Origin: Deltaproteobacteria bacterium
Lineage (GTDB): Bacteria; Desulfobacterota; Binatia; HRBIN30; CADEER01
Length of the DNA: 64,000 bases
Assembly: GCA_029262455.1 (NCBI GenBank)
Contig: JAJCZJ010000014.1
Span: 1 to 64,000 of the forward strand
Direction of reading: 5' to 3'
The translations under genes and the position numbers were made by a program. Positions 44,577 to 52,887 of the stretch are shown here, in pieces (within the stretch, counting starts at the first letter, position 1; each line of letters begins with the position of its first letter). The notes under the pieces are model-generated. The model had not been told where the DNA came from, searched no databases, and saw only the letters and a program-made list of their open reading frames with translations.

Positions 44577-47500
44577 CTATTGCGGATGACCATACCATTG
44601 CCTTCTCCGCAGAGCGGCGAAGGCAATGGTTACTAGAATGGCGCCGACGAGGGTCAGGGTGCGCCACGATGCGGTGGGTGCGCCCGAGACGATGAAGACC
44701 GCCGGTCCGCCGGGATCGACGATCATGGCGTCGGCCGCACTCGTTCCGTCGCCGAGCGCACCGTTGCTGAGAGAAAAGCTGACCGTGTTCGCCGTAAAGG
44801 TAACGGACGAGGGCGGCGTGGCCGGTAGATTGTAGAACAGCGGAGCAGCAAAGTTTGGTGGTGTCGGCCCGAACTTCCTGTACACGGATCCCGCCGCGAA
44901 GTCCGGGCTGCCGTGGTAGGTGATGGTGATGTCGGCGCTTTCGCAGGGGAGGGTGAAGCCTATCAGGCCGAGAGGATAGACGTAGTTCGGGTCTTCGGAG
45001 AACGTCGCCTCGGCCGCGACGCTGACGTTTTGCAGGAAGGAGCAGCCGCCGCCGACAACGGCGGTAATCGAGTTGCCGCCCAGGCCAGGCAGTGTCGCAA
45101 CATCGGATTGCTGAGAGTCGAGAGTCGAGTCGTTGTTTGCATCGCCGCCGTTGGGACCGCTGTCTTCCACCTGATCGGGCACTCCGTCGTTGTCACCGTC
45201 AGGTAACGGGGTGTTGGTCCGAGTCGCTGTCGGAGTGCTGCTTGGAGTCTCGGTTGGAGTGCCTGTCGGCGTCACGGTCGGGGTAGAACTATGGGTGCCA
45301 GTCGGTGTGCTGGTCGGAGTCGTGGTCGGGGTCTCGGTGGGTGTGTTAGTCGGGGTCTCGGTAGCGGTGGAAGTAGGTACATCGGTCGGTGTGCTCGTCG
45401 GTGTGCTCGTTGGGGTCGAGGTCGGAGTGCTCGTCGGTGTCAAGGTCGGTGTCGAGGTCGGCGTAATGGTCGGTGTACCTGTCGGCGGGCCTTCTTCGAG
45501 AGCCTGTGCGTAGACCCCATCCCCCGATCCATCCTGCCCGTCACTCTCCCAAACCACGAGAAATGTATCCTTCGCGACCGAAGCGCATATGTCGGGCGAG
45601 TTTTGGCTGGAGGTCGTGTAGGTGTTGACCAGGAACTCGCTGCCGATCGCGCTGCCGTCGCTTGCCAACCGGCGACGGAAGACGCCTCGACCGTCGCCAT
45701 CGCGGCCCGACGGGTGCTCCCAGACTACTTCAAACTCGCCACCGGCGGCGTAGGCGACGGAGACATTGCGCGCGTCGCCCGAGGTATAGGAGTTGATTTG
45801 GAACTCGGTGCCGACCGGGTCGCCTGCGCTGTCGAACAGTTGCCCGAAGACACCGTCGCCGTCGCCGTCGTTCGCGCCGTACCAGACGACAACGAAGTCT
45901 CGATCCGTATCCATCGCGATGGCCGGACCCCGCTGGTCATCTGCCGTATAAGTATTGACCTGGAACTGCGTGCCGAGCGCTACCCCGGCGCTGTTATAAC
46001 GGCGCCCGAAGATTCCATTTCCGTCGACGTCGTCACCTTCCCAGACGACGGCAAAGTCGCCGCTGCCGGAGCCGGCGATTTTCGACGAATAGGCGTAGTC
46101 CTCCGTGTTGACGAGAAATTCGCTGCCGACAGGCGCTCCTGAGCTGGAGAAGCGTTGACCCACGACATCGGCGTCCGAGTATTGGTAATAGCTCGTCCAG
46201 GTGACGACGAAGTCCCCATTCGAATGAACCTTTACGGCAGGTTCGTATTGGTAGGACTCGGTGAAGGTATTGACTTGAAACTCGCCGCCGATGACATTTC
46301 CGTTACTGTCGAATCTCCGGCCACGGATGTCGTCGTCATTGTTGTTGGACGGATCATCGCGTGAGAAGACAACGATGAATTCTCCGGTCGCCGTACCGTC
46401 GACGTTTGGATCTGAGGCGGCTGGTTCGCAGGCTCCGGCAACGACCTCAAAATCGCTGCCGACCGGGCTGCCGGATGAATCGAAGTTTCGCGTAAAGACA
46501 GTCAGCGAAGGCAGTTTGTTGCCGTTGCTGGGCTCCGCTTGCCAGGTCATGGCCAAGTCGCCGGAGCTGGTCGAGGCGACGTCGGGATTGAATTGTCGGT
46601 CTGGCGATGTCGAGGACACTTGGAATTCCGAGCCGATCGGGCTGCCAGCGCTGCTGACGCGCCGCGCCGTGATCCCGCTGCTCGAGTCAAGCCACGCAAC
46701 GGTGAACGAGTCGTCGCTGGCGGACACGTTGGGCGCCAACTGGTCATCGGCGGTGTAGGTATTGACGCGAAATTCGCTTGCGATCGTGGCGCCGGCACTG
46801 TCGAACGCCCGGCCCATCACGTCGCGGTCTGCACCGACGAACTCCGCCCAGGTGATCAAGAAATTGCCGTTGGCGACGATGTCGACGTTCGCATTTCGGA
46901 GCGCGTCTCCGCCCCCGGCGGCGACATCGAACTCCGTGCCGATGGGAGCGCCGCTCGAGTCGAAGAGCCTGGAAAAAATGTCACGATTACTTTGAAGCCC
47001 CCCGGTCCAGGTAACGACGAAACCGGTCCCGTTGGAACCGACACGCGGATAACTGTCCGAGCGACCCGTGTATGAGTTGACCACGAACTCACTGCCGAGG
47101 GGAGCCCCGGCACTATCGTACCTTTGGGCAGCGATGTTTTGGCCACTTGTCCACACGACGAGGAAGTCGTCGTTGTCGACAAAAGCGACATCGGCGTTGT
47201 ACTGCAGCCCTGCTGTGAATGAATTGACTTGGAACTCCGAGGCCAGAGGGCTGCCTGAGCTGTCGAAGCGTTGGCCGAAAACTCCGTCGGAGCTGCCGTC
47301 CTGATCTCGACTTTGCCACACCACGACAAAGCCGTCGTCTCGACAGTCGAGGCGCGGCATCGCCTGTCGTTCGACCGTGTAGGAGTTGATTTGAAACTCG
47401 GTGCCGAGCGCGGTTCCCGCGCTATCAAATCGTTGCCCGAAGACTCCTTGCTCTGAGCCGTCCAAGCCGTCTTCCGCGGACCAAACGACGACTGTGTTGC

Positions 47501-47831
47501 CGCTAGAGTCTCGACAGAGGTTGGGAGTGACGCGGTCCGTAAAGCAGGTCCCGGGAGGCACTTCGAACTCCGAGCCAATCAGCGCCCCATCGTCATCGAC
47601 ACGCTGCAGCAGCACGCTTTCCCCTGCGCTGTGTTGATTGGCAATCGATTCCCCCAGGTAGACGACGACGTTCGCGGCGTTGCTGCAAAAGACATCGGGC
47701 GATTCTTGGTCGGCAGCGGTGGCCGTGTTGACCAGGAACTCAGCCCCCAAGGGGACGGACTGTCCCGAGCCGACCACTGTGCTGACCAGAAGGGCAATCG
47801 CCGCCGTCAGTATTTGTGCTTGGATCTTCAC
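44577..47831 (-). CDS. large secreted repeat protein with Pro/Thr linker and sorting tail
   Basis: 1084 residues. Signal peptide ([21 protein letters not shown]). About 14 repeats of ~48 residues with the pattern QRFDSAG.PLGSEFQVN.YT...Q..P.V......FVVVW.S...DG, likely beta-propeller or beta-helix blades. A Pro/Thr linker ([16 protein letters not shown]-like, about 800-860), a domain with [22 protein letters not shown], and a C-terminal membrane/Arg tail ([19 protein letters not shown]) of the IPTL/PEP-CTERM sorting type. Probably displayed or released at the outer surface. Confidence 0.75.
45190..45485. repeat. low-complexity repeat encoding the Pro/Thr linker
   Basis: Direct, imperfect reiterations of GTCGGTGTGCTCGTCG-like units inside the secreted repeat gene. 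Such tracts are prone to length change by slippage. Confidence 0.7.
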
Positions 47832-48711: not shown

Positions 48712-50460
48712 ATGAATCTGCGAGAAACTTCACTACGCACAGCCGTCTGCCTGTTGGCCGCCTTGAACGCGGTGGGTTGTTCCAGTGGGGACGGCGGAAC
48801 ACTCCCTGACCTCACCGGTCCGCCGCCGCCGCTCGAGGACAGCCGCTCGTTTCGCGCCATCGCCGGCGTCTCGATGGGTGGCTATGGAGCGATGAACCTG
48901 GGGACCAAGCACCGCCGGATTTTCGCAACGATCGCTTCGCTGGGTGGCCCGGTCGACATGGTTCAACTCCTGCGCGACAGCGTCGAGGATAACCTCGAAG
49001 TCAAATCCCAGACCACGCTACCGCGCGAAGTCGGCGACGATTTCACATTCGACCACCTCCCGCCCTATCCGGACCGTGACACGCGCATCACCATGTTCCA
49101 GGACTTGGTGCTGGCGTTCGGCAATCCGTTCTTGCACCACCCCGATCAGAATCGGTCGTATCTGGCGGCCGACTCCGAACCAGCGATGCTCGGCATCGAC
49201 GACCAATTTGGCGCGTTCGAGGTTCCGGAAGACCCACGCGGTTTTCTCGACGGTGGCGATATCAATGAAAACGGCCTGCGCGAAGCCAATGAAATGCCGA
49301 CCCTTCCAACGGATGTAGGGCTGTTGGCGATTGGTTCACTGCCTACCGTGGTGAGCGGCGCCGAACCGGTGACCGCCGGCGGAAGGCAGCTGGCAGATCT
49401 CGACGGCGACGGCATCTTCGATACGGGAGAGGGGGTCGTCATCAACCTGGCCGAACCATTCAACGACGCAAACGGCAACGCGATCTTTGAACCCGAGCTC
49501 GGGGAGACATTCGACGACCTGGGACTCGACGGCGTCGCTGACAGCAACGACTTCGGTGAAGGCAACGGCAACTTTGACTACGACCCGGATCGCGCCAATT
49601 GGATCGCAGAAGACCCAACGACCCGAGTTCTCGACCTGCCGGCCGCCGAGCTGGCGGACGTTCGCATTTACATGGATGTCGGAACGCGGGACGAGTTCGA
49701 ATTCGCCACACACTACGAGAATTTCGTCAGCGTGCTTGCCGACAAAGGATTCGCGGTCGCCACGCAAGACGGCTTCTCCAGTAATTGCGCCAACCTGGAC
49801 GAACCCGACGCCGAGCGTCTGTTTGTACGTTACGACGCTGGTCACGTCGGCGTCGATAGCGTCGACCCGGACGATCTTTTCAACGGCAATGTGTGCGGAG
49901 AAGACACCGTCTGGCAACGTATCGTTAGCATGTTCGGATTCTTGAACGAGAGTTTCCCCGACGGCTTCTTCGGTCCCGGCGGCGACCTCGGGTTTTTTGA
50001 CATCGACTTCGATGACTTCGGCATCGACTTCCAATTGCCCGATCCCGACGTCACCGGCGACACCACGCTAGTAGACATCGAGACGCCGGCGCTCGCGCTC
50101 GAAGGTAACGCACAGACGAGACAAGCCTTGGTTTACCGCCCGCCTGCCTTCTTCCGGACCAACCGCAGCTTTCCAGTGGTGTATTTTCTCGGCGGCTATG
50201 GACAAGAGCCCAAAGATTTTGAACGCATCGATATCTTGCTGGACGCGTTGATTCTCACCGGGCAGCTGCAGAACATGTACTTCGTCGCGCTGCCAGGATC
50301 AGGTGGACGAAGGGGTTCGTTTTACGTCAACCATCGCGTATCGGAGTCGCAGGCACCCGACCTCGAAGACCCCACATCCGGTCGTTACGAAGATTCCATC
50401 CTCGAAGACCTGATCCCCGCGATTGAGAACGGCATCCTGGCTCGCCGCGTGCGGAGCTGA
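48712..50460 (+). CDS. lipoprotein esterase, apparently circularly permuted
   Basis: 582 residues. Lipoprotein signal with lipobox Cys23. RSFRAIAGVSMGGYGAM (nucleophile Ser54) comes at once, followed by HRRIFATIASLGGPVD, Ca-binding-like DLDGDGIFDTGEG and NDANGNAIFEPELGE loops, MDVGTRDEF (acid near 322-327) and YDAGHVGVD (His378). Only then, at 455-582, comes the half that normally starts an esterase-D-type hydrolase: VYRPPAFFRTNRSFPVVYFLGGYGQ...ILEDLIPAIENG. All triad residues are present but the order is rotated. Probably an outer-envelope esterase; substrate unknown. Confidence 0.7.
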   Translation: MNLRETSLRTAVCLLAALNAVGCSSGDGGTLPDLTGPPPPLEDSRSFRAIAGVSMGGYGAMNLGTKHRRIFATIASLGGPVDMVQLLRDSVEDNLEVKSQTTLPREVGDDFTFDHLPPYPDRDTRITMFQDLVLAFGNPFLHHPDQNRSYLAADSEPAMLGIDDQFGAFEVPEDPRGFLDGGDINENGLREANEMPTLPTDVGLLAIGSLPTVVSGAEPVTAGGRQLADLDGDGIFDTGEGVVINLAEPFNDANGNAIFEPELGETFDDLGLDGVADSNDFGEGNGNFDYDPDRANWIAEDPTTRVLDLPAAELADVRIYMDVGTRDEFEFATHYENFVSVLADKGFAVATQDGFSSNCANLDEPDAERLFVRYDAGHVGVDSVDPDDLFNGNVCGEDTVWQRIVSMFGFLNESFPDGFFGPGGDLGFFDIDFDDFGIDFQLPDPDVTGDTTLVDIETPALALEGNAQTRQALVYRPPAFFRTNRSFPVVYFLGGYGQEPKDFERIDILLDALILTGQLQNMYFVALPGSGGRRGSFYVNHRVSESQAPDLEDPTSGRYEDSILEDLIPAIENGILARRVRS

Positions 50461-51718: not shown

Positions 51719-52447
51719 TCAGCCTCGCGCCGCCACGAAGACGTAGCCCCGGGTCTTGCCCGATCCCGAATCGGCGGTGTTCATCGCGTCGAACAGCGCC
51801 TCTGCCTTCACCCACACCCACGGGTATTTGTAGGTGGAGACGTCGAGCACCAGGAAACGATCGGTCTCCGCGTCGTAGGCCGCAATCGGCGAGATGTGGC
51901 CGCCGGAGCGCTGGCCAACGACCGAGCGCAAGTAATTGACGAGGACGAAGTCGCCGGCGCGCGATAGATTTCGCCGCGCGGCGGTGCGGAACTCATCGAG
52001 CGTGACGTCGCCCGCATGCACGACCTCCACGTGGGCTCGATGTGCGGCCAAAAGTCCGCCGAGCTGCTCGAGAGTCATGCCGCCATAGAATGTAGACCAG
52101 GCGCCGCGGACATCTGCCGCCACGCCGTCGAAGAACGTCTCTTGGGAGACGGGTGCCGGCTGCGTGCCGAGCGCGTTGAGCGCGATGACGCCGCTCGCCA
52201 CGCCGCAGTACGACGCGTACTGCTGCGCTTCGAAGTGCACGTCGAGCAGATCGAGGTCGGCGCGCTCCACAGCACGGCCAACAAGTACGCGGCCCTCGTC
52301 GCTCTCGAACGAGATCAGCGATTCGGCCAGCGGTAGGTTCTGGACCGACGGATTCGCCACCCGCCAGCTCAGATAGCCGAACCCGAGCGCGCACAGCATC
52401 CCGACTGCAAGGACCAGCCTGCTGGCTATCTTCATGGCCGGTCGCAT
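51719..52447 (-). CDS. phytochelatin-synthase-fold cysteine peptidase-like protein
   Basis: About 242 residues from the ATG at 52447. An N-terminal anchor (IASRLVLAVGMLCALGFGYLSW) is followed by a papain-like phytochelatin synthase domain: QQYASYCGVASGVIALNALG with Cys81, SGGHISPIAAYD with His184, and LDVSTYKYPWVWV with Asp202, the complete triad. Bacterial members hydrolyse glutathione or related thiols. Probably periplasmic and membrane-tethered. Overlaps nothing upstream; 52565-52887 shows no gene. Confidence 0.8.
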   Translation of the reverse strand: MRPAMKIASRLVLAVGMLCALGFGYLSWRVANPSVQNLPLAESLISFESDEGRVLVGRAVERADLDLLDVHFEAQQYASYCGVASGVIALNALGTQPAPVSQETFFDGVAADVRGAWSTFYGGMTLEQLGGLLAAHRAHVEVVHAGDVTLDEFRTAARRNLSRAGDFVLVNYLRSVVGQRSGGHISPIAAYDAETDRFLVLDVSTYKYPWVWVKAEALFDAMNTADSGSGKTRGYVFVAARG

Positions 52448-52887
52448 GCGAAGCCTCGTTTCCCGGATCGTATTGCGGCCGAAAACGCGCTCACACGGAT
52501 CCTCGTTCGTGTCGCCGCCAACGCGGCCAAATGGGGATACGCCCCCTCTGATATCGCGCGACATGCACGCTCACTTGCATCGGCGAATACGGACTCACCC
52601 AGTTCTCTTCACACCGATCACGGCGAACCACAAGCTGGTCTATCGGCTGTACTGAGAGAAGGACCCGGCAGGGAGAAGCGGGACACCTACCCGCGAAGCC
52701 GAACCCCCGATTTTCGACGTGCCCGAAGTGGGGGTGGATAGCTGGTTCGTTGCGTCCAGCCTCCAGCTTGTGAAGGTTGTCTGCAAAAGAGAGTATAGTA
52801 AGTTGAATTACCCATCTCGTGACGGCGACGGCCTTCATCCAATAGCGTCTCGAGGATACTCAATAACCATCTAAGGGAGGAGCATTA

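Follow-up and report, generated by a model that had tools for sequence, protein, structure and literature searches.

A naturally circularly permuted family of PF00756 esterases, probably permuted independently of the type-2 PHA depolymerases

Results and discussion

The gene at 48712..50460 on the forward strand of the window, the 64,000-nucleotide stretch of DNA that was analysed, very probably encodes an exported serine esterase of PF00756 ancestry that has been naturally circularly permuted, forms one alpha/beta-hydrolase domain, and descends from a single, independent permutation. It is uncommon for an enzyme to be naturally circularly permuted when both halves contribute to its active site.

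Gene and domain layout

The open reading frame starts with ATG, encodes 582 amino acids according to its translation and its homologues of the same order, and lies in the interior of a 172,861-base contig, away from the edges. All of its features are on the forward strand. The first 23 residues (48712..48780) form a signal peptide ending in a lipobox cysteine, Cys23, which is invariant in a six-sequence alignment, and the protein is thus a predicted lipoprotein. The nucleophile-elbow segment (residues 44–150, 48841..49161), identified by its alignment with canonical elbows and its match to about positions 132–167 of a canonical esterase profile, occupies an N-terminal position and contains the nucleophile Ser54 in the motif GVSMGG (48871..48873). 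It is followed by an acidic insert (residues 176–296, 49237..49599) with DxDGDG-like loops such as EPFxDxNGN and GLDGVxGTGDFGEG, and then by the acid/histidine segment and last helix (residues 297–415, 49600..49956), which correspond to profile positions 251–300. This segment carries the putative catalytic acid Asp327 in MDVGTRD (49690..49692), aligned with the canonical D-x-G-x-x-D, and the putative catalytic base His378 in AGH (49843..49845).

A linker from the old C-terminus to the old N-terminus (residues 416–447, 49957..50052) leads to the remainder of the domain. Residues 416–451 and their counterparts in homologues range from 16 to 37 residues in length, a variability that is expected of a linker. 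An alternating run of Asp and hydrophobic residues (DIDFDDFGIDF; 49996–50037 in the window) was seen in the linkers of several members. Residues 448–582 (50053..50457) comprise strands 1–4, the oxyanion loop and the pre-elbow helix; they align with residues 5–106 of the solved esterase 8z91 and with 34 canonical first halves, yet here they are C-terminal. Within PVVYFLGGYG (residues 488–497), the LGGYG loop (residues 493–497, 50188..50202) is the counterpart of the canonical HGG oxyanion loop in a column-by-column alignment with canonical FLAGFA and LLHGFK. The LIPAIE helix (residues 567–572, 50410..50427) belongs to a C-terminus conserved in homologues, and the chain stops 10 residues past it, at the point where the canonical chain enters the elbow strand. 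The order along the chain is therefore elbow with Ser54, Asp327, His378, strands 1–4 with the oxyanion loop, and pre-elbow helix. The first-pass annotation had placed Ser54, His378, PVVYFLGGYG and LIPAIE correctly; its further proposals, that the protein is a lipoprotein and that the missing first half sits at the C-terminus and ends at the entry to the elbow, agree with these alignments.

Profile evidence for the swapped order

The Pfam profile PF00756 (Esterase; gathering cut-off 22 bits) scored 53.5 bits against the protein in two separate stretches, the best of which paired residues 45–86 with profile positions 116–155. When the C-terminal half was moved in front, a single stretch of 64.6 bits covered profile positions 8–155, and removal of the acidic insert from this un-permuted form raised the match to 71.2 bits over positions 8–196. 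The colinear PF00756 order, with the oxyanion strand ahead of the nucleophile elbow, was reversed in 17 out of 17 members of the family. Seven canonical relatives were used to build a profile, which matched along the protein in the order 133–167, 251–300 and 20–124, every part once and none repeated, and the same segments occurred once each, rotated, in other permuted open reading frames. With the insert removed, un-permuting merged the separate matches to this profile into one longer, higher-scoring match in all 17 sequences; the best single-stretch score of the window protein rose from 42.2 to 89.7 bits. In a rotation scan of the mature sequence, the score levelled off at 63.7 bits wherever the cut lay between about residues 150 and 450, compared with 41 bits for the native order, and it dropped for cuts outside this range.

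The solved esterase 8z91 told the same story at the level of a single chain: query residues 453–544 aligned with chain residues 5–106 and query residues 47–77 with chain residues 133–163, which means that the halves are in swapped order. A profile of the permuted sequences searched against the PDB found 8z91 at an E value of 1e-28, in three segments and in permuted order. Each segment of the domain is thus present once, in rotated order and with one shared break, and the rotation is a natural circular permutation in which all triad residues have been kept.

The two separate stretches seen by Pfam could also be read as two incomplete, unrelated hydrolase halves that were fused and do not make one domain. 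We consider this very improbable, since the pieces add up to one domain without repeats and join at about profile position 125–132, the solved esterase 8z91 is matched by each half, the predicted model packs them together (see below), and homologues have kept the order, the ends and the triad.

Homologues and clades

Seventeen distinct full-length sequences of the same order were recovered, counting the window protein. They formed a single clade in the phylogenetic tree (support 100/99), with 11 sequences in one subclade, mostly from Candidatus Binatia, and six in a second, more distant one from another class of the window's phylum. The permuted order extends across several genera and two or more classes. 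Homologues of the same order shared 52–65% identity across several genera of the window's class, and others came from a metagenome-assembled genome (MAG) labelled Planctomycetota and from a groundwater MAG. In the phylum to which the former is assigned, 392 genomes were searched, and the one full-length permuted case found was that sequence itself. Ser54, Asp327 and His378 were invariant in all 18 permuted sequences, one of which is partial. In the second clade the signal peptide lacks the lipobox Cys, the start takes the form '..PQFRAIxGVSMGGYGA', and the C-terminus looks canonical, 'DLxxxIDxxxxTK'. The acidic insert was kept in both clades and was shorter in the second.

Misjoins are possible in metagenome-derived assemblies, and a tandem duplication trimmed at both ends would imitate a permuted gene. 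The chance of such an artefact here is negligible, as the same order occurs in many separately assembled genomes at 36–66% identity with conserved ends, and the gene is interior to its contig. The first-pass annotation had suggested a circular permutation with all triad residues retained and had named a tandem-duplication artefact, a fusion of two hydrolases and halves that fail to pack as ways in which it might be wrong. The 17 sequences, the invariant triad and the confidently packed model bear out the permutation, and none of the three objections was upheld.

Several further observations were made on individual loci. Five additional candidates (L109–L113) were rejected as permuted forms, having canonical order or only a partial profile match. 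Contig 27 of genome G008 holds another copy of the permuted gene, which looks decayed (L015:1306-2019, L013:1525-2244): its elbow reads GVSMRAYGA with a glycine lost, a frame shift separates the two pieces, and the match lacks the C-terminal half. A contig titled as a Klebsiella pneumoniae MAG (CAMBZJ010000037.1, L023) also carries the permuted esterase; its length, 27522, equals that of contig G032:C37 of the window's class, with which it appears to be identical, and the title is probably a mislabel. In the second clade, L045 has two fibronectin-III-like repeats ahead of the permuted domain, as judged by eye; L045 and L063 both come from genome G507, and L065 and L066 are extended to a similar length at the N-terminus.

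Predicted structure

An AlphaFold2 model was computed from the 18 permuted sequences together with canonical half-fragments. It reached a pLDDT of 76.5 and a pTM of 0.83, with core values above 90 in both halves. Because the half-fragments were placed by sequence alignment, the model depends in part on the sequence argument. Much of the acidic insert was of low confidence, and a model from an alignment of six close homologues had a pLDDT of 35. With this pTM and the structural match to 2D80 described below, the model conforms to the alpha/beta-hydrolase fold, whose marks are a central sheet, helices and a serine at a nucleophile elbow.

Foldseek against the PDB gave 8z91 as the top match, over one half only, and aligned 2D80/2D81, the type-2 PHA depolymerase (PHB depolymerase) of Penicillium funiculosum, across 314 columns. 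A second structural aligner ranked 2D80 first, well above the next rows (Z 16.5, 243 residues), and its alignment ran from model residues 5–540 to chain residues 29–338 in sequential order through both halves. A viral structure library gave no match to the model at E values up to 0.001. Given the end-to-end match to 2D80, the halves are predicted to pack as one domain with the topology of that enzyme.

The monomer prediction would also be compatible with an obligate domain-swapped oligomer, in which the active site is made from two chains, and some members have a long linker. Such an arrangement is nevertheless improbable, given the confident monomer model and linker regions of down to 16 residues.

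Relationship to canonical PF00756 esterases

The canonical PF00756 esterases compared here include the soil-metagenome esterase 8z91, the feruloyl esterases 7xrt and 5vol, and the chromosomal relatives L048–L050, the last about 28–33% identical to the un-permuted window protein. They share with the permuted esterase sequence ancestry, the triad, and GSFYVN- and GRYEDxIxxDLIPxIE-like motifs, but have the standard order, with termini elsewhere, and among the loci read the acidic insert occurs only in the permuted proteins. As judged from sequence, the protein is a permuted offshoot of PF00756 that lies outside standard membership, because its profile score exceeds the cut-off while its order is reversed. 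The initial assignment to the 'esterase D' type was correct for the PF00756 family but not for esterase D proper: S-formylglutathione hydrolase/esterase D (TIGR02821) belongs to the same broad esterase family and has the standard order, and its model scored 14.8 bits, where the cut-off is 281.7. Ordinary PF00756 esterase genes stand next to each other in tandem in one family of the phylum (L106/L116, L107/L120, L108/L118), and a permutation could begin from pairs of this kind.

Relationship to type-2 PHA depolymerases

In type-2 dPHASCL depolymerases the oxyanion hole is C-terminal to the triad (PMC2666664), and 2D80 has Ser39, His155 and the oxyanion Cys250 in this order (PMC7034887). The permuted esterase likewise has its oxyanion hole C-terminal to the triad (Ser54, Asp327, His378, then LGGYG at 493–497) and shares with these enzymes the order Ser, Asp, His and oxyanion loop, the break ahead of the elbow strand, export and the overall fold. 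The natural permutation, flagged as unusual in the first-pass annotation, is real but thus has one known parallel. The two groups differ in their parents, PF10503/type 1 for the type-2 PHA depolymerases (NF050059; 2D80/2D81) and PF00756 for the permuted esterase, and in the acidic insert, which the permuted esterase carries.

The shared break and the best structural match, together with GGPYD/GGPVD-like residues after the strand following the elbow helix in both sequences, would fit a diverged PHA depolymerase with one permuted ancestor in common with type 2. The profile searches argue against this. The type-2 model NF050059 (cut-off 280 bits) gave no match to the permuted esterase at E values up to 1 and scored 349.3 bits against 2D80, for which we used a sequence identical to the PDB chain. 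PF10503 had no match in the permuted esterase, the un-permuted form included, whereas it scored 30.8 bits against un-permuted and 21.5 bits against native 2D80. The type-1 PHA depolymerase model NF050058 scored 14.8 bits against the permuted esterase, below its cut-off of 150; against 2D80, the type-1 model reached 110.6 bits in two stretches, and 2D80 also matched TIGR01840. In trees of un-permuted sequences, which are deep, with long branches and two type-2 sequences, types 1 and 2 grouped together at 100/99 (2D80 with type 1), apart from PF00756 and the permuted esterase family, and a forced clade of type 2 with the permuted family was rejected (AU p 0.0102). A common permuted ancestor is therefore unlikely.

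The separate group of types 1 and 2 and the single clade of permuted PF00756 sequences imply two permutations, one per family, and the permuted PF00756 family probably represents a second permutation at the same break, independent of the type-2 PHA depolymerases. It is likely that both families were permuted independently at the same point before the elbow strand, which suggests a preferred break that the fold tolerates. The literature searched contained no description of a permuted PF00756 or feruloyl-type esterase, and a survey preprint on circular permutation did not mention hydrolases; relative to this literature, the permuted PF00756 subfamily appears new.

Possible function and origin

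The protein has an export signal, an intact triad and an oxyanion loop, features that speak for a serine esterase active outside the cytoplasm. The enzyme would be exported and probably anchored in the outer membrane, and would act on an external ester through the usual acyl-serine mechanism, with Ser54, Asp327 and His378 as the triad of a single alpha/beta-hydrolase domain and the LGGYG loop near the C-terminus supplying the oxyanion hole. Its chain would begin just ahead of the elbow strand and finish after the helix that formerly preceded this strand, with a variable linker connecting the old ends. The insert would decorate the domain with loops that, from their conserved EF-hand-like DxDxDG motifs, appear to be of the calcium-binding type. 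One permutation event in the ancestor of both clades, independent of the type-2 PHA depolymerases, would account for the family; the simplest route may be tandem duplication, then fusion, then loss of the outer halves. No tandem intermediate between canonical and permuted forms was found.

The adjoining genes encode an HGSNAT-type acyltransferase and a phytochelatin-synthase-like protein. No neighbour gene was conserved among the loci compared, so that the substrate is not shown by context. The bacterial phytochelatin-synthase-domain protein (window 51722-52564, reverse strand) matched PF05023 at 177 bits. Also on the reverse strand, window 44577-47831 encodes a secreted-looking protein of 1084 amino acids. 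It contains numerous GSEFQVNTYT-like repeats and a Thr-Pro-rich region, ends in a hydrophobic and Arg-rich tail resembling a sorting signal, and had no Pfam match at E values up to 0.001.

Implications

Profile tools that respect order give two partial esterase matches for the permuted esterase, which is a blind spot of annotation. If the same place was permuted twice, independently, the second event would be a natural replicate for asking how far the fold tolerates rearrangement, namely whether the alpha/beta-hydrolase fold accepts new ends only at certain points. The positions of permissible chain ends are relevant to the engineering of lipases and polyesterases.
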